From Cellulomonas sp. Leaf395 (GTDB taxonomy: Bacteria; Actinomycetota; Actinomycetes; Actinomycetales; Cellulomonadaceae), in assembly GCF_001424125.1 (NCBI RefSeq), contig NZ_LMQI01000001.1:523688-587687 (forward strand): a DNA stretch of 64,000 nt, given 5' to 3'. Below the pieces are notes generated by a model. The model saw nothing but the letters and a program-made list of their open reading frames with translations, was not told the origin of the DNA and made no database searches. Positions 1,805 to 64,000 of this stretch are shown piece after piece. The position numbers and the translations under genes are program-made. The stretch's first letter is position 1. Every line of letters begins with the position of its first letter.

Positions 1805-4800
1805 CCGTCGACGCCTTCGGGACGGCTGCCCTGCGCGCGGCCGTCCTGGGGGCGTGGCGGGTCTCCCCGGCTCGGTTGCGGGAGGACGCCAACACGGAGG
1901 AGGACCACGCCCGCGGCTACTACCGCGACCGTGTGATTGTCGAGCTCGCGCAGAACGCCGCGGACGCGGCCACCCGCGCGGGGGTGCCGGGTCGCCTGCT
2001 CCTGCGGCTGGCGCGCACGGAGGGCGACCGGCTGGTTCTGGTCGCCGCGAACACGGGTGCACCCCTGGACACGGACGGCGTCGCGTCGCTGGTGTCGATG
2101 CGCGCGTCGGCCAAACGGGACGACCGCCGCGCGGTCGGCCGGTTCGGGGTGGGGTTCGCCGCGGTGCGGTCGGTGTCCGACGAGATCTCCGTGCTGTCCA
2201 CCTCGGGCGGTCTGCGGTTCAGCGTGGCCGATACGGCGGAGCTGCTCGCGGAGGCTGCGGAGACCAACCCTGCGCTGGCCGACGAGGTGCGCCGCCGCGA
2301 CCGGTCCCTGCCGGCGCTCCGGCTCCCGTTCCCCGCGGAGGGCACCCCGCCGAGCGGGTACGACACTGCCGTGGTGCTGGAGCTGCGGGACGAGGTCGCG
2401 GCCGACGAGGTCCGCTCGCTCCTGCACGACGTGGGCGACCCGCTGCTGCTCGCCCTGCCGGGCCTGGTCGAGATCGTGCTCGACGACGACACCGGCCCGG
2501 TCCGGCGCCTGGCGGACGTCGCGGAGCGCTGGACGGTCGCGACGGGGGAGGGCGAGCTGCCCCTGGCGCTCATGGCGGACCGCCCGGTGGAGGAGCGTTC
2601 CGCCCGGGCGTGGCGGGTCACGTGGGCGCTCCCGCGCGACGGTGCGGAGCTGGCTCGCGCGGAGCATGTGGTGCACGCGCCGACGCCGACCGACGAACCG
2701 TGCACGGTGCCCGCCCTGCTCGTCGCGACCTTTCCGCTGGACCCCTCCCGCCGGCACGTCGCGCAGGGCCCGCTCACCGAGGCGGTGCTGGACCATGCGG
2801 CCGACGTCTACTCGCGCCTGGCACACGACCGCGCGGCCGCAGGTCAGGACGCGCTCGCGCTCGTCCCGATGGGGCTCGCCGCGGGCGCGCTCGACGCGAC
2901 GTTGCGGGACCGCATCGTCGACCGCCTGACCCGCACGCCGTTGCTCGTCCCCGCCGCGCCCGACGACGACAGCGTTCTCGTCGTCCCCGAGCGGGCCGTG
3001 GCTCTGGCCGGCTCCTCGGTGCACGACGCCGGTGCGCTGGTCGCCCTGGGCAGGCGCGTCGCGGCCCTGGTGGTCCTGCCGGCCGGGCGCGAGTCGCAGG
3101 CGCGGGCGGTCGGCGTCGAGATCCGCTCGCTGGCCGACGTGGTCGAGGATCTCCCGACGGTCGGCGACGGCGGCTGGTTCGAGCTCTACGACGCCCTCGC
3201 GCTCCTGGCCGCCGACCCGCAGTCGCGCGAGGCACTCGGGGCCGTCCCGGTCCCGCTGGCCGACGGTCGTGTGGTGCGGGGTGCGCGCGGCACCGTCGTG
3301 CTGGACCCCGACCTCGTGGCGCGCGTGGGCGAGCGGACGTTGGAGACGCTGGGCCGCTGGGGCGTCCGCGTGGTCGACCCCGCAGCGGCGCACCCCGTGC
3401 TGGAGCGGCTGGGTGCGCAGTCCCTCGACGCCGTGGGAGTGCTCGCCCAGGACACCGTCCGACGTGCCGTCCTCGACCTCGCCGACGACGACAGTGAGAC
3501 CGACGACGTCGTCGACACGCTCCTCGCCCTCGTCGGCGCCGCGGACGGCAGCCCGCTGCCGAGCGACGCGCTGCCCTGGCTCGGCCTCCTCCCGCTCCCG
3601 GCCGCCGACGGGGACCGCACCCCCGCGGACAGCCTGGTCCTGCCCGGCTCGCCCGCGGCGCAGCTGCTCGACGACCGGGTGCTGGGCACCGTGTCCGCCG
3701 ACGCGGTGGACCGGTGGGGTGCGCAGACCCTCACCGCGGTCGGGGTGCGTGCTGACCTGGTCCTGGTCCGAGTCCCGGACGTCCTCGCGGACCCAGCCTC
3801 GCTGCGGGACGGCGCGACGGACTCGGCGACGCTGGCCGCACAGTCGCTGGACGGCTGGGACGAGTACCTCACGCACCTGGGAGAGCGGCTCGGCGGCGGG
3901 ACGTACGTGGGGGAGGTCGTGGCCGTCGCGGACCTGGACGCGGTCGACCCGGAGGCGTGGCCGAGGGTGCTCGGTCGCATCGCGGGGGACCCGGATCTGC
4001 GTCGCGCGCTCGTCGACCCGGTGCGCGGCGAGTCGTCGGCCGTCGCGCCCTCGTACACGTCGTGGTGGCTGCGCGAGCGGTCGGAGCTGGGCCTCGGCCG
4101 GCCGTTCGCCGTCGGGGACCGGCTGGGCGCGCTCCTTCCCGCCGCGCCGGACGCCGTCGCCCCCCTGGACGCCTCGGTGCAGCGCGCGCTCGGCGGGGTG
4201 GCCTCGCTGGAGGAGCTGGACGGCACCGGGTGGACGCAGCTGCTCGACGGGTGGGGCCCGATCGGGGTGTCGGTCGACCCGGAGCTCGCCGTCGCCGTGT
4301 GGCGGTCGATGGCTCCCGACGAGCCGCCGGAGCGGCTGCCCGCGATCGTGGGACCCGGTCGCGTGGCCGTCGTGCACGCCGAGGACGCCGCCGTCGCGGA
4401 CCACCCGATGTGGTACCAGCGCACCGACGTCGCCGCGCTCGTGCCCGGCACGGAGGCCACCGCCGCACTCCTCGACCTCCCGATCGCCGGCGACCTGGCC
4501 GACGGTGCGGTGACGCCGGGTGGCGAGGTCGACGACGTCCCCGCCGGCGTGCGCACCCTGCTCCCGGACGCTCCGACGACGTGGGTGCAGCACGACGACC
4601 TGCTGGTCGACGGCGCACCCGTCGACTGGTGGGTCGAGGACTCCGTCGTGCACGCCGTGCACCTCGCCGGCCTCGCGGCGGGGCTCGCGCAGGCGGCCGG
4701 CCGGTGGGACCTGCGCTACGCGGTGGAGGTCCTGCTCACGGCTCCGGACCGGGCTGCGGAGATCGCGCTGGACGTGGTCGAGGGGAGCCGCCCCGACGGG

Positions 4801-54733: not shown

Positions 54734-56179
54734 GTGCCCAAGGTCCTCACCGCCGGTCGTCCCTGGCGTGTCATCCTCCTGTTCGCCGTCCCCCTGCTCG
54801 TCGGCAACGTCGTCCAGCAGCTCTACCAAGCGGCCGACGCCGTCGTCGTCGGTCGCGTGCTCGGCGTGGACTCGCTCGCCGCGGTCGGCGCCACGGGCGC
54901 CCTGCTCTTCCTCCTGCTCGGCTTCGCATGGGGAATGACGAACGGCTTCGCGATCCCGACCGCGCAGGCGTTCGGCGCCGGCGACCACGCGGCCGTGCGC
55001 CGGTCGGTCGCGGCCGGGACGGTGCTGTCGGGCGCGACGAGCGCGGTCCTGACCGTGGCGGCGCCGCTGCTGGCGGCTCCGGCGCTGCGGCTGCTCAAGA
55101 CGCCCGAGGAGCTGCTCCCGGAGGCGACGACCTTCGCGGTCATCAGCTTCCTGGGCGCCAGCACGATGATGTTCTTCAACTTCCTCTCGGCGATCATCCG
55201 GGCGATCGGTGACTCGCGCACGCCCCTGGTCTTCCTGACCATCAGCTGCGTCCTGAACGTCGTCCTGGTGGTGGTCGCCGTCGCCGGTCTCGGCATGGGC
55301 GTGGCCGGCGCAGCGGTGTCGACGGTCCTGTCGCAGGGCGTGTCGGTCGCGCTGTGCCTGGCGTTCGTGCGGCGCCGCGTCCCGGTGCTGCACGTGCACC
55401 GCGACGAGTGGCGCGTGAGCGGGGTCGACCTGCGTCGCCATCTGCGTCTCGGACTGCCGATGGGGTTCCAGGCGGCGATCATCGCGATCGGCACCCTCGC
55501 CGTGCAGGTCCGGCTGAACGAGCTCGGGTCCGACGCGGTCGCCGCGTACACCACCGCGGTCCGGGTTGACGGTCTGGCCGTCGCGCTGCTGGCGTCCCTC
55601 GGGCTCGCGGTGTCCATGTTCGTCGCGCAGAACCTCGGCGGCGGGCGGCCGGACCGCATCCGCCGCGGCGTCCTGCAGGCCATGGGTCTGTCGGTCGCGG
55701 GCTCGCTGGTCCTCGGTGTCGTGCTCGTCACCGGCGGGTCCACGCTCGTCGGCCTCTTCGTCGGCGACGGCGAGGAGCGCGTGGTCGAGATGGCCGCGCA
55801 CTACCTGCTGGTCAACGGCGCGCTGTACGTCGTGCTGGGCGTGCTGTTCGTGCTCCGCGGCTCGCTCCAGGGCCTCGGCCAGACCGCCGTCCCGACGCTG
55901 ACCGGCGTGATCGAGCTGATCTGCCGGGTCGGCGCAGCAGCCGTGCTCGGTGCGGCCTACGGGTACAGCGGCGTGGTGTGGGGCAACCCGCTCGCGTGGA
56001 TCGGGGCGGTCGTCCTGCTGGTGCCCGCCTATGTGGTGGCGTCGCGGCGGCTCGCGCTGCAGCCGGTGAGCGAGCCTGTGGTCCCGGAGGTGATCGCGCG
56101 GCGGCGGATCACGAGGCTGCGGCACCGCGGACCGTCGGCCCGCAAGCCCGTGCGGCGGTCGCGCGTCCCGTCGGCCTGA
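54734..56179 (+). CDS. MATE-family multidrug efflux transporter
   Basis: 481 aa with about 12 helices. PLLVGNVVQQLYQAADAVVVG and the second-half repeat LGLPMGFQAAIIAIGTLAVQ fit the two MATE half-repeats (DinF/NorM branch). Proton- or sodium-driven export of cationic drugs. GTG start. Its stop abuts the convergent TetR stop (56180). Confidence 0.9.
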   Translation: MPKVLTAGRPWRVILLFAVPLLVGNVVQQLYQAADAVVVGRVLGVDSLAAVGATGALLFLLLGFAWGMTNGFAIPTAQAFGAGDHAAVRRSVAAGTVLSGATSAVLTVAAPLLAAPALRLLKTPEELLPEATTFAVISFLGASTMMFFNFLSAIIRAIGDSRTPLVFLTISCVLNVVLVVVAVAGLGMGVAGAAVSTVLSQGVSVALCLAFVRRRVPVLHVHRDEWRVSGVDLRRHLRLGLPMGFQAAIIAIGTLAVQVRLNELGSDAVAAYTTAVRVDGLAVALLASLGLAVSMFVAQNLGGGRPDRIRRGVLQAMGLSVAGSLVLGVVLVTGGSTLVGLFVGDGEERVVEMAAHYLLVNGALYVVLGVLFVLRGSLQGLGQTAVPTLTGVIELICRVGAAAVLGAAYGYSGVVWGNPLAWIGAVVLLVPAYVVASRRLALQPVSEPVVPEVIARRRITRLRHRGPSARKPVRRSRVPSA

Positions 56180-56791
56180 TCAGGCGCCGGTGGCCAGCGG
56201 CAGGATCACGGTGTCGATCATCCGCACCACGAACTCATCGTCGACGTGCTGGCCGGCGACCATCTTGCGGTAGGAGATCATCGCGGGCGCCACGGCCGCC
56301 ACCATGTCGAGGTCGATGTCCGCGCGGAGCTCTCCGCGGGCCTGGGCACGTTCGAGGATCTCCCGCATCAGCGCGACGCGTGAGCGCACGAACTGCTCCT
56401 GGAAGACGGCGGCGACCTCGGGGTTCTCGCGGACCGCGGACATGAGCCCGGCCATGAGCTCGCTCTGGTCCGAGCTCTTGCGGCCGAAGCGGACGGACAG
56501 CAGATCGCCGCGCAGCGTTCCGGTGTCGGGCACGTCGCCGATCGACATCGGGCTCCCGGGACCACAGACGACGGCGTCGACCGTGAGCTGCACCTTGGAC
56601 GCCCACCGGCGGTAGACGGTGGCCTTGCCGGCCCCGGCGCGCTCCGCGACGGCGTCCATCGTCATGCCGTCGTAGCCGCGCTCCGCCAGCAGCTCGCGCG
56701 CCGCGGCGAGGATCGCGTCGTCCTTGGAGTCGTCCCGGCGCCGACCGGGTCGACGCGCGACCGGGGCCTGCGTCGCCTCCACGTTGCTCAT
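56180..56791 (-). CDS. TetR-family transcriptional regulator
   Basis: 203 aa. N-terminal HTH (DDAILAAARELLAERGYDGM; MDAVAERAGAGKATVYRRWA) and C-terminal ligand domain with RSRVALMREILERAQARGEL. Divergent from the DHA2-type MFS exporter and convergent with the MATE exporter; shared operator sites suggest it represses both. ATG at 56791; the open frame further upstream runs through the operator. Confidence 0.92.
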   Translation of the reverse strand: MSNVEATQAPVARRPGRRRDDSKDDAILAAARELLAERGYDGMTMDAVAERAGAGKATVYRRWASKVQLTVDAVVCGPGSPMSIGDVPDTGTLRGDLLSVRFGRKSSDQSELMAGLMSAVRENPEVAAVFQEQFVRSRVALMREILERAQARGELRADIDLDMVAAVAPAMISYRKMVAGQHVDDEFVVRMIDTVILPLATGA

Positions 56792-56827
56792 GCCTGCCTC
56801 TCGCCGGCTCCCTCGTCGGAGCCACAC

Positions 56828-56856
56828 CGTATCTCGAATCGATCTAACGATACTCG
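56828..56856. promoter_or_regulatory. TetR operator candidate in the TetR/MFS divergent gap
   Basis: CGTATC...GATAC flanks a GAATCGATC core (56836-56844) that is the exact reverse complement of GATCGATTC at 54658-54666. It lies between the divergent tetR and MFS starts. Confidence 0.6.
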
Positions 56857-56925
56857 AGGGTTCCGGAACTGCCCAGTTCTGTATTAGTGTCGATCCACCG
56901 ACCACGACGTCCCAGGAGCAGCTTC

Positions 56926-58419
56926 ATGTCCTCCCCCACGCAGGCCCCGCCGGAGAGTCAGCACCGCTGGCTCGTCCTGGCCACGGTCGCCCTCGCCCAG
57001 CTGATGGTGGTCCTCGATGCGACCATCGTGAACATCGCGCTGCCCTCCGCCCAGGCGGAGCTCGGGTTCAGCGACAACGACCGCCAGTGGGTGGTCACCG
57101 CCTACGCGCTGGCCTTCGGCAGCCTGCTGCTCCTCGGCGGCCGCCTCTCCGACATGTTCGGCCGCCGCCGCATGTTCCTCATCGGCCTCGTCGGCTTCGC
57201 GGTCGCCTCGGCGCTGGGCGGCGCCGCGCAGACGTTCGAGCTGCTCGTCGGCGCACGCGCCCTGCAGGGCGTGTTCGCCGCGGTCCTCGCCCCGGCGGCG
57301 CTGTCCGTGCTGACCACCACGTTCACCAACCCCAAGGAGCGCGCCCGGGCGTTCGGCGTGTTCGGCGCCATCGCCGGCATGGGCGGCGCCATCGGCCTGC
57401 TGCTGGGCGGCTACCTCACCGAGAACTTCGACTGGCGCTGGAACCTCTACGTCAACGTGGTGATCGCCCTGATCGCGTTCGTCGCCGGCACGGTGCTGCT
57501 GTCCCGGGTGGACACCAAGCACGACACCCAGATCGACGTGCCCGGCGTCCTGCTCGTCTCGACGGGCCTGTTCGCGCTGGTGCTCGGCTTCTCCCAGGCC
57601 GAGCCCCAGGGCTGGGACTCCCCGGCCGTGTGGGGCTCGTTGGCCGCGAGCCTCGTGCTCCTGGTCGGCTTCGTCCTGCGGCAGCGGACCGCGGAGCACC
57701 CGCTGCTGCCCCTCTCGATCGTCCGTGATCGCGACCGCGGAGCCGGGTTCCTGTCGATCCTCGTCGCCGGCACCGGCATGTTCGGCGTCTTCCTGTTCCT
57801 CACCTACTACCTGCAGCTGACGCTCGGGTACGGGCCGATGCAGACCGGGACCGCCTTCCTGCCGATGGTGCTCTTCATCGTCATCACCGCGCAGGTCCAG
57901 ACCAACATCCTGGTCCCGCGTTTCGGCCCGAAGGTCGTGGTGCCGGCCGGGATGGTGGTCGGGGCGCTCGCGATGCTCTGGTTCACCACGCTCGAGGTGG
58001 ACAGCAGCTACAGGCTGGTGCTCGTCGGCCTCGTCGGCATGGGGATCGCGATGGGCTCGATCATGCCCGCGTCGTTCCAGATCGCCACGCTCGGTGTCCC
58101 ACCCCGCCAGGCCGGCGCCGCGTCCGCGATGGTCTCCACCAGCCAGCAGGTCGGCGGAGCGATCGGCACCGCGGTCCTGAACACCCTCGCGGCGACGGCG
58201 GCCACCGCCTACGTCGCCGACCATGCACCCGCGACGCCCGAGGTGATCGCCGCCGGAGCGGTGCACAGCTTCTCGGTCGCCTACACCTGGTCGGCGGGGA
58301 TCTTCCTGCTCGGTGCCGTCGTCGCCGCGTCGCTGTTCCGCACCCGTCGGGATCGCGACGCCCGGCTGGCCGACGCAGCGCGGGCGACGCGCGACGAGGC
58401 TCCGGCGCTCGCCCACTGA
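56926..58419 (+). CDS. DHA2-type MFS multidrug exporter (EmrB/QacA)
   Basis: 497 aa, 14 helices predicted. LMVVLDATIVNIALPSAQ, GGRLSDMFGRRRMFLIG and GLLLGGYLTENFDWRWNLY are DHA2 motifs. Exports lipophilic drugs. ATG 56926 is set by AGGAG 8 nt upstream. Divergent from tetR, which probably controls it. Confidence 0.92.
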   Translation: MSSPTQAPPESQHRWLVLATVALAQLMVVLDATIVNIALPSAQAELGFSDNDRQWVVTAYALAFGSLLLLGGRLSDMFGRRRMFLIGLVGFAVASALGGAAQTFELLVGARALQGVFAAVLAPAALSVLTTTFTNPKERARAFGVFGAIAGMGGAIGLLLGGYLTENFDWRWNLYVNVVIALIAFVAGTVLLSRVDTKHDTQIDVPGVLLVSTGLFALVLGFSQAEPQGWDSPAVWGSLAASLVLLVGFVLRQRTAEHPLLPLSIVRDRDRGAGFLSILVAGTGMFGVFLFLTYYLQLTLGYGPMQTGTAFLPMVLFIVITAQVQTNILVPRFGPKVVVPAGMVVGALAMLWFTTLEVDSSYRLVLVGLVGMGIAMGSIMPASFQIATLGVPPRQAGAASAMVSTSQQVGGAIGTAVLNTLAATAATAYVADHAPATPEVIAAGAVHSFSVAYTWSAGIFLLGAVVAASLFRTRRDRDARLADAARATRDEAPALAH

Positions 58420-58483
58420 CCGCCCCGTGCGTCGCCGGCGTCCTCCGCTACCGGTGCCCCTCCGCGCTCTCTATCGTGAGAAC

Positions 58484-59794
58484 GTGAATCCGCTGAGCCG
58501 ACGAGTGCGCGACGCCCGGGAGAAGGCCGGGCTGAGCCAGGGGCAGCTCGCGCGGCAGGCAGAGGTGCACCCGACGTACATCTCGCACGTGGAGAACGAC
58601 CGTCGCGGCTTGGGCGAGGACGCGCTCGCCAGGGTGGCCCAGGCGCTCGGTGTCTCGGTGTCCTACCTCCTCGACGGCGAGCAGGCTCCCGACTACCGGT
58701 CCGCGGAGGGTGCCCTCGTCGAGGCTCGTCGGCTGTCGCGCACAGGCGAGGTGCGAGCCGCCGCGGACGTCCTCGCGCAGGTGGACGTGTCGGCTCTGGA
58801 TGTCGACACCGCGGCGCGGGTCGGGCTCGCACACGCCGAGGCCCGCGACCTCGCCGGTGACCTCGAGGGATCGGTCGACGCCCTGGAACGCCTCTGCGCG
58901 CGGCTGATGGACTCGCGCCGGTACCTGCAGGCCGCGTACGCCGCGATGCGGATCGTCATGGCCCTCACCGAGATCGCCGACCTGCACCGCGCCGTGACCC
59001 GCGGGGAGCACCTGCTGGCCCAGCTCCCGGCCTCCGCCGCGGGCAGCGACGAGGTGGTCCGGCTCGAGTCCACCATCATCTGGGCGTACGTCGCCCGCGG
59101 CGACGCGACGTACGCGCGGTACCGCGGTCGGCAGCTGCTCGCGCACACCCGACAGCACGGGTCGGCCCGGGCGGTGTCGTCCGTGCACTGGAACCTGGCG
59201 TTCGTCGACGACGCGCTGGGGGATCCTGACGCGGCGCTCGCGCAGCTCGAGTCCGCGATCGCGCTGGCGGGCGCCGACGAGATCGACCGCGACCTGCCCC
59301 GCCTGCGCCTTGACCGGGCGTTCCTGCTCCTCTCCGTCGATCCCCCGCGGGCCGCGGAAGCGCTGGCGGACCTCGATGCCGCGCAGACCGCCCTGGAGGT
59401 CAGCGAGTCACAGATCGAGCTGGCCCGCGCCGACTCCGTCCGGTCCCGCGCCTGGTTGCTCCTCGACGACGCGCCGGCCGCTGCGCGGTACGCCAGCCGG
59501 GCTGTCGAACTGCTGCGGGAAGGCGTGCGTCGCGACTCCGCGTCCGCGCACGAAGCGCTCGGCGACGCGATGCTCGCCCAGCGGGCGCGACCGGAGGCCG
59601 TCAAGGAGTACCGGTCGGCAGCCGAGCTGCTCGACATGATCTCGTCCGGACGGGCCGCCGCAGTGCTCTGGCGTCGCATCGGAGACCGCCTCCGGGTGGC
59701 CGGCGACGAGGACGACCGGGTGGCCGAGGCCTATGGCCGCGCGCTCGCCGCCGCCGGCATCCGTGGAGCGCTGCCCCCGCCGGCGAGGGCCTGA
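58484..59794 (+). CDS. XRE-HTH regulator with TPR domain (RRNPP-like)
   Basis: 436 aa. An XRE helix-turn-helix at about 4-60 (RRVRDAREKAGLSQGQLARQ; HPTYISHVENDRRGLGEDAL) joins 370 residues of helical TPR-like repeats (for example AEARDLAGDLEGSVDALERL, LGDPDAALAQLESAIALAGA). This domain order matches the Rap/NprR/PlcR/Rgg-type (RRNPP) regulators that bind secreted peptides through the TPR. The gene is followed by a 39-codon signal-peptide gene, strengthening that reading. GTG 58484 chosen because the HTH begins 4 residues later. Generic XRE-TPR regulators without peptide partners also exist in actinobacteria. Confidence 0.88.
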   Translation: MNPLSRRVRDAREKAGLSQGQLARQAEVHPTYISHVENDRRGLGEDALARVAQALGVSVSYLLDGEQAPDYRSAEGALVEARRLSRTGEVRAAADVLAQVDVSALDVDTAARVGLAHAEARDLAGDLEGSVDALERLCARLMDSRRYLQAAYAAMRIVMALTEIADLHRAVTRGEHLLAQLPASAAGSDEVVRLESTIIWAYVARGDATYARYRGRQLLAHTRQHGSARAVSSVHWNLAFVDDALGDPDAALAQLESAIALAGADEIDRDLPRLRLDRAFLLLSVDPPRAAEALADLDAAQTALEVSESQIELARADSVRSRAWLLLDDAPAAARYASRAVELLREGVRRDSASAHEALGDAMLAQRARPEAVKEYRSAAELLDMISSGRAAAVLWRRIGDRLRVAGDEDDRVAEAYGRALAAAGIRGALPPPARA

Positions 59795-59860
59795 ACGCCG
59801 TCTACCCCCCTGGTGTCCTGCGTCATTGCGCCCTAGACATGGGCTGGGGACCATTCCAGG

Positions 59861-59881
59861 TGTACCGGAACGTCCGGTGCA
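59861..59881. promoter_or_regulatory. Inverted repeat in front of the small peptide gene
   Basis: TGTACCGGA-ACG-TCCGGTGCA has 9-bp arms with one mismatch and lies 20-40 nt upstream of the peptide start, in the gap after the XRE-TPR gene. It is a candidate operator for that regulator. Confidence 0.55.
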
Positions 59882-59900
59882 CGCTCGGAAAGGTGCCCTC

Positions 59901-60020
59901 ATGAAGAAGCTCAGCATCGTCGTCGTCATCGCCCTCACCGCGTTCGCCGGCGTCGCCGGCGCCACGGCGGCCTCCGGCTCCACCCAGGTCGCCGCACCGT
60001 GCTGCAAGCAGGCGATCTGA
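59901..60020 (+). CDS. 39-aa secreted peptide precursor
   Basis: MKK start, hydrophobic core (LSIVVVIALTAFAGVAGATA), small residues before a signal-peptidase site near ATA-ASG, then a 16-residue tail ASGSTQVAAPCCKQAI ending in vicinal cysteines. ATG 59901 has AAAGG upstream. Such a short exported peptide next to an XRE-TPR regulator resembles Phr, PapR or NprX precursors, which are processed to short signal peptides. No homology was checked. Confidence 0.7.
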   Translation: MKKLSIVVVIALTAFAGVAGATAASGSTQVAAPCCKQAI

Positions 60021-60641
60021 CACACCGGCCGGACGCGACGCCGCACCTGCCCCCGAGGCCCGGCGCCGCGCGAAGGCATGAAGGAGAGCATCGCCTCGTC
60101 TTCCCGCTGCCCTCTGGGCTGCCGGGGGAGCCCTCGCGCCCGCGGCCGACGCCCGTTCGTGGCGCCGCGCTGCACCTCCGGCACCCGAACGTCGGAGCCT
60201 GTGGCGTCCCGCACCCTCGTGCGGCGACGTCCACGTGGTCGACGATCACTCCGGCGTGTCCGTCTGCACGGAGCGGGCGGCCGTGCGCCCGTGATTTCGG
60301 TCGTCCCGGCACCTCCACAAGCGGGCGCGCGTGGACCGCCCGGCTCCGGGTTGGATCGGCCAGGATCAGCCAAGATCCAGGTGATTCTCAGGTTCGAGGA
60401 TTCACCCGGACGGGCAGCCTGGACGTTTGACCAGCACGGCATTCGTGCCGCACACTCGTTCTGACGGTGCGCATCGCCTGCCCCCTGCGCGGTGCGCACC
60501 GTCTTCACGTCCGGAGAGCGGGACGGGTCCCCTGACCCGTCCCGCTCTCCGCGTCTGTGGGGTTGCCTCCCCGCTGTGTACCTCGTCTGCACCGGCGCGC
60601 CATGCCCGTGATCACGCGGCGGCGCGGTTAGCGTTCCCAGG
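60021..60641. other. 620-nt gap with two inverted repeats, no clear gene
   Basis: The frames here lack a codon pattern typical of this genome. It contains perfect inverted repeats GACGGTGCGCA/TGCGCACCGTC (60463-60473 and 60493-60503) and GGAGAGCGGGACGGGTC/GACCCGTCCCGCTCTCC (60513-60550), the latter a strong terminator hairpin. One short frame (60078-60464) is possible but unconvincing. Confidence 0.55.
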
Positions 60642-63600
60642 GTGACCGTCCCCGTGCGCACCTCCGGCCCGGGACCCGACCAGGCTCCTGAGACCGGCGC
60701 AGACCCAGCCGACCGCCCGTTGCTCGTCGAGCCCCCGAGCCCCGCCGAGCTCCTCGAAGGTTCCGTCGCCACCTGGCGGGCCGCCCTCGTCGAGGCCGCC
60801 GGCGGGTCGACGCTCGTCGACGTCGAGCTGCTCGGCGACGCCGCGCTGGACCTGTCGGCCGCCCACCCGTCGGGCATCTCCCAGCTGTACGCCGGCCGCG
60901 AGACCCGGCTGTCCAACCTGGTCCGCGAGGGTGCGGCGCTGTCGACCGCGCGCCGCCGGGCGCGGGCCGTGAGCTCGCGCGCCGCGGTGTACGCCCAGCG
61001 CTACGGGATCGCGCCCACGTCGCTGGCCATCGGCGTGGCCACCTGGACCGAGCGCACCACCCCGGACATCGCCAGCGACGACGTCGCCGCGCTCGCGTCC
61101 GTGACCCGGCAGCGGACGCCGGACGACGAGCAGCTGGCGGACGTCGCGCCCCGGATCGTGCGGGCGCCCGTGCTCCTGCGGCCCGTCACCCTGCACGCCC
61201 GCGGGTCCGGCGAGAGCGACTACGAGCTCGCCCTCGAGCCGTCGCTCGAGGTCAACCCGGTGCTCGCACGGGCCTTGCGGACACGCGGCGCGCTCCTCGA
61301 CCCCGGCGCGGTCGCGCGCGGCACGTTCACGTCCAACGGGTTCGACCCGCGCGGGGCGCTGCACCGGCTCGCCTCCTTGGGCGAGGCCGTCCTCGACGAC
61401 TTCTCGATGAGCGAGCGCGTGGTCGTCGGCACCTTCGTGCACCCCGGCCAGATCCTCGTCGACGACCTGGACAACCTGTCTGGGACGCTCGAGCGCCACG
61501 AGGTGGTCTCCGCGCTCGCGGGGGTCGAGGAGTCCCGTTCCCGCCTGCGGCGGGTCCTGCCCGCCCCGGTCCACGGCGACCGCGACCCCGGCCACGAGCG
61601 CGGCGTCGGCGACCTCGACCCCGCGCAGCAGCACGTCCTCGACGTCGTGGCGACGGGCACGCACCTGTTCGTCGACGCCCCCGCCGGCGCCGACGCTACT
61701 GGGACGCTGGCCGCACTCGTCGCCGACGCGGCCGCCACGGGTCGCACGGTGCTCTACGTGCCGGGACATCGTCGTGCGGCCACGGCGCTCGCGGACCGGC
61801 TCGCCGTCCTGGGTCTCGGTGACCTGCTGCTGGACGTCGCACCGGACGCCGGGTGGCGGTCGGCGATCTCCCGCCGCCTGCTCGGCGCGATGACCCTCGA
61901 GGCGCCCGCGGTCGACGCGGACGGTGTGGCCGCCCTGCGCAGCGAGCTCGTCAGCACGCGCGAGCGCCTGCGGGCGTACGTCGACGCACTGCACGCGGAG
62001 CGCGACCCCTGGGGTGTCTCGGCGTACGACGCCCTCCAGCAGCTGGCCCGTCTCACCTCGACCCGACCGGCGCCGAAGACGACCGTGCGGCTGTCACCCG
62101 ACGTCGCGCGCGTGCTCGACGCGCCGCGCCGCGCCGAGCTCACGTCCGCGCTCGTGCAGGCCGGTGAGCTGGGCGCGTTCCGGGTCCGTCCGACGGACAC
62201 GGCCTGGTACGGGGCGGACCTGCGGACGCGCGCCGACGCCGACAACGCGGTGCGCAGGCTCGAGCGAGTGCTCGACTCGACCCTGCCGGCGCTCGTCGCG
62301 CGGACCGCGCAGGTGGCCGCAGAGACCGGGCTGACGCAGGCGACCACCGTCATCGCGTGGGTGGAGCAGCTGACGATGCTCGACGGCGTCCGGGCGGCGC
62401 TCGACGTGTTCTCCCCGATCGTCTTCGAACGCACCGCCGCCGACCTCGTCGCCGCCACCGCCACCAAGGAGTGGCGTGCCGAGCGCGGCGTCGACATGGG
62501 CTTCTGGCTGCGCCGTCGGCTGCGCAAGCAGTCCAAGGACATGGTCCGTCCCGGCCGGCCCGTCGCGGACCTGCACGCACGGCTGCTCGAGGTGCAGGCG
62601 CAGCGGGAGATCTGGCAGGCGCACTGCCCGTCCGGCGGGTGGCCGCGCCTGCCCGACGGTCTCGAGCACATCGAGGAGGAGTTCGCCGCGGTGCGCGCCG
62701 ACCTCGACGCTCTCGACGAGGTCCTCGCCACGACGCCGGGCGGAGGCGGCCTGTCCAGCCTGCCGTTCGAGGCACTGACCGAGCGCCTGACGCGGCTCAG
62801 GTCCGACACCGACGCCCTCGCGGACCTCCCCGAGCGCACGGGGCTCCTCCACCGCCTCCGCTCCGCAGGGCTGGGCCCGCTCGTCGACGACCTGGCCACC
62901 CGCCGCATCGACCCCGCCCTCGCGCCGGCCGAGCTGGACCTGGCCTGGTGGAGCACGGTGATCGAGCAGATCCTCAGCGAGGACCCGGCGCTCGCCGGGT
63001 ACGACGGCGCCGCGCTCGGTGCGCTGTCCGCGAGCTACGCGACGCTCGATCGCGCCCATGTGAAGAGCCTGTCCGGCCCTGTCCTCGGGGCGGTCGTCGG
63101 GCACGTCTCGCACGCGCTGCGCCAGCACCGCGAGCAGGCCGAGGCGCTTTTCGCCGACCTCATCGAGGAGCGGCTCACGTCGCTGCGGGACACGGTCGTG
63201 CGACACCCTGAGGTCGCCCGTCGGCTGCGACCCGTGATCGCTGCCAGCCCCATGCTGGTCCCACAGGTGTTGCCACCGACGCGCACCGTCGACCTGGTGG
63301 TCATCGACTCCGCGGCGCACCTGCCCGTGGAGGTGGCCCTCGCTGCCGTCGCCCGCGGTCGGCAGGTCGTCGTCGTCGGCGACGCGCGCTGCGCCTCCGG
63401 AAGCGCCGTCCGGGAGCTCGCGGCCGTGCTGCCCTCGGTCGCGCTGCGCGCCGACTCTTCCCGTCGCGACCCGTACCTCACCGCGTTCCTCGCCGCCCAC
63501 GGCTACGCCGGCGTGCTCCGCCCGACGCCTCTGCCCCAGCACCGGCCGCTGGTCAGCCTCGACGTCGTCGACGGCACGGGCATGCCGGACCCGGCGACCG

Positions 63601-64000
63601 GGTCCGTCGAGTCGACGCGTGAGGAGGTCGAGCACGTCGTCGAGCTCGTGCTGACCCACGCGCTGCTGCGGCCCGACGAGTCGCTCGCCGTCATCACCGC
63701 GACCCAGACCCACGCGGAGGCCGTCCGGGAAGCGGTCCTGTCCGAGGTCCGCGGCAACCCCGCGCTCGCCGCCTTCTTCGACTCCGGCCGTGTCGACCCG
63801 TTCGTCGTCACCGACCTGCCCAACGTCGCCGGCCTGCGCCGCGAGGCGATCGTCCTGTCGCTCGGCCTCGGCCGGACCCCGCACCGCCGCGTCCTGCACA
63901 CCTTCGGGCCCATCACCGGACCCGGGGGCGACGCGCTGCTCCTCGACGCTCTCGGCTCCACCCGGCACCGGCTCACCGTCGTCGCGTGCTTCGGGTCCGA
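60642..64000 (+). CDS. Large DNA2/NAM7-type helicase-like protein (3' end outside window)
   Basis: At least 1119 codons open from GTG 60642 to the window edge. Related to the long actinobacterial SF1-type helicases: GLRREAIVLSLGLGRTPHRR and RVLHTFGPITGPGGDALLLD recall the C-terminal helicase region. Walker A reads APAGADATGTL (about 346-356), lacking the usual Lys, and Walker B reads VVIDSAAHLP with Ser where Glu or Asp is expected. The ATPase may be inactive, or the family may differ from canonical helicases. The stop is not seen. Confidence 0.72.
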   Translation, partial: MTVPVRTSGPGPDQAPETGADPADRPLLVEPPSPAELLEGSVATWRAALVEAAGGSTLVDVELLGDAALDLSAAHPSGISQLYAGRETRLSNLVREGAALSTARRRARAVSSRAAVYAQRYGIAPTSLAIGVATWTERTTPDIASDDVAALASVTRQRTPDDEQLADVAPRIVRAPVLLRPVTLHARGSGESDYELALEPSLEVNPVLARALRTRGALLDPGAVARGTFTSNGFDPRGALHRLASLGEAVLDDFSMSERVVVGTFVHPGQILVDDLDNLSGTLERHEVVSALAGVEESRSRLRRVLPAPVHGDRDPGHERGVGDLDPAQQHVLDVVATGTHLFVDAPAGADATGTLAALVADAAATGRTVLYVPGHRRAATALADRLAVLGLGDLLLDVAPDAGWRSAISRRLLGAMTLEAPAVDADGVAALRSELVSTRERLRAYVDALHAERDPWGVSAYDALQQLARLTSTRPAPKTTVRLSPDVARVLDAPRRAELTSALVQAGELGAFRVRPTDTAWYGADLRTRADADNAVRRLERVLDSTLPALVARTAQVAAETGLTQATTVIAWVEQLTMLDGVRAALDVFSPIVFERTAADLVAATATKEWRAERGVDMGFWLRRRLRKQSKDMVRPGRPVADLHARLLEVQAQREIWQAHCPSGGWPRLPDGLEHIEEEFAAVRADLDALDEVLATTPGGGGLSSLPFEALTERLTRLRSDTDALADLPERTGLLHRLRSAGLGPLVDDLATRRIDPALAPAELDLAWWSTVIEQILSEDPALAGYDGAALGALSASYATLDRAHVKSLSGPVLGAVVGHVSHALRQHREQAEALFADLIEERLTSLRDTVVRHPEVARRLRPVIAASPMLVPQVLPPTRTVDLVVIDSAAHLPVEVALAAVARGRQVVVVGDARCASGSAVRELAAVLPSVALRADSSRRDPYLTAFLAAHGYAGVLRPTPLPQHRPLVSLDVVDGTGMPDPATGSVESTREEVEHVVELVLTHALLRPDESLAVITATQTHAEAVREAVLSEVRGNPALAAFFDSGRVDPFVVTDLPNVAGLRREAIVLSLGLGRTPHRRVLHTFGPITGPGGDALLLDALGSTRHRLTVVACFGS

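Follow-up and report, generated by a model that had tools for sequence, protein, structure and literature searches.

An XRE-TPR regulator paired with a Cys-Cys-tailed precursor peptide gene: a probable RRNPP-like signalling module in Cellulomonas and other Actinomycetota

The regulator and the precursor gene

The 64,000-nucleotide stretch of Cellulomonas sp. Leaf395 DNA analysed here (contig NZ_LMQI01000001.1; hereafter the window) encodes on its plus strand a regulator of 436 amino acids, a proposed intracellular peptide receptor (58484..59794, an open reading frame (ORF) from GTG to stop), with an N-terminal XRE helix-turn-helix (HTH) and a helical tetratricopeptide repeat (TPR) domain. Its stop codon is followed after 106 nt, on the same strand, by the ATG (59901) of a gene for a 39-amino-acid precursor peptide (59901..60020, plus strand). 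This arrangement had been put forward in a reading made from the sequence alone (the sequence-only reading) and is confirmed by the coordinates. From the evidence below, the two genes probably constitute a peptide signalling module like those of the RRNPP family.

The HTH (residues 4–62, 58493..58669) was identified by profile search (HTH_31, 2.4e-13; HTH_3, 5.2e-13) and also resembles HipB/HigA-type domains, below the cut-off. An AlphaFold2 model based on a 47-sequence alignment was all-helical, with a mean predicted local distance difference test score of 91.4 and a predicted template modelling score of 0.82; its secondary structure, together with a fold comparison, places the TPR superhelix at residues 69–423 (58688..59752). 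The regulator matched the TPR_MalT profile weakly (0.002, under the cut-off of that profile). It has the build of an RRNPP receptor, namely 250–500 amino acids with a C-terminal TPR superhelix and an N-terminal XRE HTH of the type found in PlcR, NprR, Rgg and PrgX. PlcR was matched by profile across both the HTH and the TPR regions, and ComR was matched in its HTH; in the fold comparison, unrelated TPR proteins ranked higher. The regulator is RRNPP-like by architecture and only possibly of common descent with the known receptors. The closest named homologues of the regulator are from Cellulomonas.

The precursor, MKKLSIVVVIALTAFAGVAGATA/ASGSTQVAAPCCKQAI, has a Sec-like N-terminus with a KK pair, a hydrophobic core and an A-x-A site, and ends in PCCKQAI; the slash marks the likely signal-peptidase site, as predicted by the A-x-A rule. 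The gene is preceded by a ribosome-binding site, GGAAAGG (59887..59893), 7 nt 5' of the start codon, and the adjacent Cys codons (residues 34–35) lie at 60000..60005. Met1 and the two Cys alone are unchanged across 22 aligned precursors; random variation of the tail, which would have refuted the sequence-only reading, is thus not what is seen. Five close species preserve the reading frame across an in-frame one-codon indel. These five species also carry an intact second peptide copy downstream, the counterpart of which in the window is decayed (60080..60234, plus strand; 72–74% DNA identity, gapped, to the second copy of loci L005–L009). The decayed copy also lacks the ribosome-binding stretch of the five species' intact copies. 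The precursor belongs to no Pfam family, and its two NCBIfam matches (E 0.093 and 0.098) were both under the cut-off.

To find further precursors we used a filter (hereafter the CC filter) for short ORFs with a hydrophobic, K/R-bearing N-terminus and a Cys-Cys (CC) pair no more than 14 residues from the end. This filter was devised once the window's peptide was known, with start codons assigned mechanically, and the distance profile from regulators therefore serves as its control. In the loci fetched up to that stage, CC ORFs numbered 0.98 per kb in the first 100 nt from a regulator and 2.75 per kb at 100–200 nt, falling to 0.015 per kb at 1–1.5 kb, i.e. 65- to 180-fold rarer than beside it. 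Across the 64-kb window the filter returned a single ORF, the precursor at 59901, at each of three hydrophobicity thresholds. That the precursors are chance ORFs picked out by a post hoc filter with mechanical start calls is hardly credible given this enrichment, the single match in 64 kb, the frame kept across species, and a side and strand that are near-constant within groups.

The pair and the inverted repeat in the genus

Matches to the regulator were found in 68 of 81 genomes of the same genus at 1e-20, and fall into orthologues (type A, at least 56% identity; 27 loci fetched) and a paralogue family (type B, about 40% identity). All 27 type-A loci have a CC precursor downstream, in one to five copies (two to five in nine loci), one of them (L013) with a GTG start; Pro precedes and Lys follows the CC pair for all 26 type-A regulators scored. 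In type B the precursor lies upstream of the regulator and mostly ends in GCC[KR]: the window genome's own type-B regulator (G000:C5:21387-22667) has an upstream precursor ending GCCRLIN. A CC precursor was found for 67 of 69 type-B-group regulators and for neither L223 nor L226, while at L171 and L172 one peptide is flanked by two regulators. The order of regulator then peptide, a further element of the sequence-only reading, thus holds for type A and fails for type B; in families other than these the precursor is usually divergent, its side and strand being near-constant within each group.

Other neighbours of the type-A pair are seldom kept. The upstream major facilitator superfamily (MFS) gene recurs in 2/27 loci at 1e-5 and the next gene in 7/27 (window counted), leaving the peptide as the constant neighbour. 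The upstream MFS and TetR genes were considered as partners of the pair and rejected, as neither was conserved; the TetR count, 0/27 at 1e-5, says little because that gene lies beyond the available flank in most loci. Type-B synteny is fixed, with an EAL-domain gene, on the opposite strand to the pair, in 67/68 loci and rpsT in 66/68, and the EAL-domain neighbour is a hint at cyclic-di-GMP control. In the window genome's type-B locus (L310, G000:C5:17000-27000) the EAL gene lies at 3202–4089. These neighbourhoods bear on the possibility that the small gene encodes the precursor of a modified or metal-binding peptide, with Cys ligands, under a pathway regulator. Adjacent Cys residues are good metal ligands and modification sites; however, neither of the type-A neighbours scored (the MFS gene and the next gene) is constant, the type-B neighbours are not maturation enzymes, and the tails of some relatives have no Cys at all. 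We give this explanation very little credence.

Between the two genes, 5' of the ribosome-binding site, lies an inverted repeat, GTGTACCGGA-ACG-TCCGGTGCAC (59860..59882), with 10-nt arms that are 90% complementary and a 3-nt spacer. The sequence-only reading took this for a possible operator, and its conservation supports that view: a palindrome precedes the first peptide gene in 27/27 type-A loci, its centre 27–36 nt before the start codon. With the centre picked to maximise pairing (L016 fell into another register), at least seven of nine pairs formed in 26 of the 27 loci, compared with 442 of 5400 shuffles handled alike. Counting outwards from the centre, complementarity holds in 27/27 for pairs 3, 4 and 6, and changes are paired: pair 4 is once T-A and otherwise G-C, and pair 7 is G-C 13 times and A-T 10 times. 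The consensus has a single perfect match in the window's own genome, at this locus. Allowing up to two mismatches gave 30+30 matches against 16+20 for the control, and we claim no regulon on this basis; one single-mismatch match lies inside a long ORF, a putative subtilase read without a family search. No shared palindrome was seen before the precursors of type B (every third regulator), Jiangellaceae or family code f35. We propose the repeat as a candidate operator of the regulator; it may instead form a hairpin in the 5' leader.

Further downstream, in the gap between the peptide gene and the gene after it, an 18-bp inverted repeat pairs perfectly around a 4-nt loop (60512–60551); it has no T-run and was not called a terminator. 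Promoter and terminator consensus scans of 58380–60650 found none, and nothing in 56000–64000 matched Rfam at the gathering threshold.

Distribution, receptor site and other tails

Beyond the genus, regulator matches were found in 39/150 family and 13/149 order genomes (both 1e-25), 73/394 class genomes (1e-20) and 41/396 phylum genomes (1e-20, with a broader profile), each sample including the window's own genome; at these rates the module is patchy and not universal. In the class survey 14 places were left out (13 second copies in f35 and one f44 fragment); a CC precursor accompanied none of the six f35 second copies that were fetched, and adding the rest would lower the class rate. In the phylum survey 29 new loci (L313–L341) were examined out of those listed. 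A scan of named records kept 79 loci of 101 candidates; one of its search patterns contained WNA, so that it favours regulators with Trp-Asn.

Overall, a CC precursor lay within 700 nt of 249 of the 301 regulators examined, a wider confirmation, beside the type-A loci, of the sequence-only reading's proposal that homologous regulators have a signal-peptide frame next to them. The 301 are non-independent, some organisms being represented both by a genome and by a named record; left out of the counts were duplicates (L034–L037, L075), loci with the HTH only (L003, L004) and matches covering fewer than 300 profile positions. By group, the strict filter found CC precursors for 28/29 regulators in the rest of the family, 8/10 in the order, 56/84 in the class and 64/81 in named records. 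Outside the family the CC pair is usually the very C-terminus (class 50/56, named records 57/64), as in PDWPGMCC (Phytoactinopolyspora), ASGACC and DIPLCC (Streptomyces) and GGIWCC (family code f44). CC precursors occur in 14 family codes, and named genera with one include Streptomyces, Kitasatospora, Streptacidiphilus, Jiangella, Phytoactinopolyspora, Kineosporia, Kutzneria and Umezawaea. The f44 regulator L145 has 66 and 79% identity to proteins named Candidatus Nanopelagicaceae.

Sixteen plasmid records, 14 of them named Streptomyces, also matched the regulator; two were opened, one with a CC precursor and one with none by the CC filter. On a 0.5-Mb linear plasmid of Streptomyces goshikiensis (NZ_CP115937.1; L342, 4083–4590) the regulator is followed by two hypothetical proteins, the first being the CC precursor, and a BTAD-domain regulator comes after both. 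Phage records gave one partial match, to a sequence lacking annotation, that covered 65% of the query.

Residues Trp236-Asn237 (codons 59189..59194), a putative part of the peptide site, are invariant in the 47-row regulator alignment. A CC precursor within 700 nt accompanied 241/261 regulators with Trp-Asn and 8/40 others, one of these eight being spurious. The association of Asn with CC over all 301 gives a Fisher value of 4e-22, the rows being related. In a reduced set of 113 representatives below 72% identity, 77 have both Asn and CC, 9 have Asn alone, 5 have CC alone and 22 have neither (six contig-edge loci omitted, one spurious CC call reset and four set to CC after a relaxed look). On the tree of these, about 3.5 independent pairs agree, none oppose and 7.5 do not differ (p 0.125). 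The link between Asn237 and CC is suggestive: the counts favour it strongly, and the tree test falls short of significance.

Within f35 (7–11-Mb genomes) a CC precursor accompanies each of the seven regulators with Trp-Asn (for L119 after correction) and one with Trp-Met, and the seven with Gly, Ala or Gln at that position have non-CC precursors. Exceptions to the link are the f44 regulators with Gln and CC (L145, L149, L152, L153), and also L120, L136 and L155. Of the 20 Trp-Asn regulators for which the strict filter called no CC precursor, six are at contig ends, L168 and L284 have CC on a relaxed look, L272 has a CC precursor at 913 nt, L070 has CC 30 residues before the end, and the remaining 10 have no CC precursor in the flanks examined.

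Other tails accompany related regulators. In f35, precursors at one and the same divergent position have either a CC end or a tail rich in W, P and G (YGWGWPG and SPWQWPI, for example); no precursor was seen for the f35 Trp-Glu regulators L106, L108 and L109. The precursors of two more distant regulators carry a motif three times, DISWP at L158 and IGNWPDPM at L160 (again at L313), and in this resemble multi-copy pheromone precursors. In other classes of the phylum (within L314–L339) a divergent ORF of 25–35 residues was seen at 14/21 loci, with tails including PWPK, NWPHH, GWPKH, PWPPCC and FPGCCG, and none at 7/21 by the looser filter used; this evidence is weaker because that filter has no background rate. 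Such repeats and diversifying tails are as expected of signal precursors.

The same observations count against a small, membrane-active toxin that the XRE-TPR protein would repress or, as an antitoxin, neutralise. Toxin-antitoxin loci commonly have a short hydrophobic ORF next to an XRE regulator, and the sub-threshold HipB/HigA resemblance of the HTH would fit it. A toxin would not readily account for Sec-like precursor N-termini, a variable tail around a fixed motif, a 350-residue TPR domain in the receptor, up to five copies per locus, or repeat-bearing relatives, and we regard this explanation as very unlikely.

A possible mechanism and comparison with known systems

For the signalling module favoured here, the gene order, the domains, the pairing in many families, the Cys-Cys tail and the repeat are observed; we infer export, import, binding, targets and all dynamics as follows. 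The precursor would leave through Sec and be cut after AGATA, yielding either the roughly 16-residue tail or a smaller fragment around PCCK. Return into the cell would be by an oligopeptide permease; the window's own genome encodes four SBP_bac_5 proteins that could serve such uptake. The TPR superhelix would then take up the peptide in its groove, close to Trp236-Asn237, with the two Cys as the likely recognition core; this binding would alter the hold of the XRE domain on the palindrome 5' of the peptide gene and so complete a feedback loop. More speculatively, the Cys pair might become oxidised once exported and be reduced again in the cytoplasm, which would mark re-imported peptide. 'Quorum sensing', the term of the sequence-only reading, is likewise only an inference.

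The invariance of a redox-active Cys pair would also suit a cell-internal sensor of secretion or thiol stress, in which precursor retained on failure of Sec export or disulfide formation is bound by the TPR regulator and the same cell responds, with no cell-cell signalling. The repeat, in suggesting a regulated peptide gene, also agrees with such a sensor, which moreover dispenses with the import step that the signalling module only presumes. Tandem copies with varied tails (9/27 type-A loci), together with the Cys-free W/P-rich tails and repeat-bearing precursors of related modules, fit signals better, and we consider a stress sensor unlikely.

To our knowledge, neither the gene nor the intracellular receptor of BLD261, a signal of Streptomyces coelicolor, is known. 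As described in PMC11303876, extracellular BLD261 is taken up by the oligopeptide ABC transporter BldK, and the module proposed here resembles this system in having an extracellular oligopeptide signal imported in an actinomycete. PMC10075063 describes actinobacterial signalling as resting mainly on enzyme-made small molecules and presents a survey limited to Firmicutes and viruses; a 2026 review (PMC13220807) presents RRNPP with Firmicutes examples. No RRNPP-type or CC-tailed system in actinobacteria was described in the literature searched, to the extent of its accessible text and with preprints and most subscription journals outside the search, in agreement with the sequence-only reading that such systems are not established there. 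By its architecture the module would be a Cys-Cys variant of the RRNPP kind.

Taking the observations jointly, we lean somewhat towards a previously unnoticed, Actinomycetota-wide superfamily of peptide signalling systems with XRE-TPR receptors and exported precursors. In its main class, the receptor would recognise an invariant Cys-Cys core at or near the C-terminus through a Trp-Asn site in the groove of the TPR domain, and thiol redox might act as a gate when the peptide is re-imported; this class would range from Cellulomonas and Streptomyces as far as freshwater-type Nanopelagicaceae with small genomes. A second class would have W-P tails, including precursors in which a motif is repeated. 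If so, the phylum would have a peptide language with a new chemistry, in Streptomyces, in many families and in small-genome Nanopelagicaceae-like genomes, and there would be candidate genes for the peptides imported by actinobacterial oligopeptide permeases. Short synthetic peptides make the module directly testable.

Rap proteins of the Rap-Phr systems have no DNA-binding HTH, unlike the present regulator. The Rgg/ComR receptors of Streptococcus are XRE-type and are encoded beside a very short peptide gene (SHP or ComS), often divergently; export of SHP and ComS does not use a classical Sec signal, and these systems have no Cys-Cys core, whereas the present precursor does. PlcR-PapR and NprR-NprX are the RRNPP systems of Bacillus whose regulators have an XRE domain; by comparison, the present module is found in actinomycete hosts, its precursors have a Cys-Cys tail and occur in up to five tandem copies, and they lie downstream of, upstream of or divergent from the regulator.
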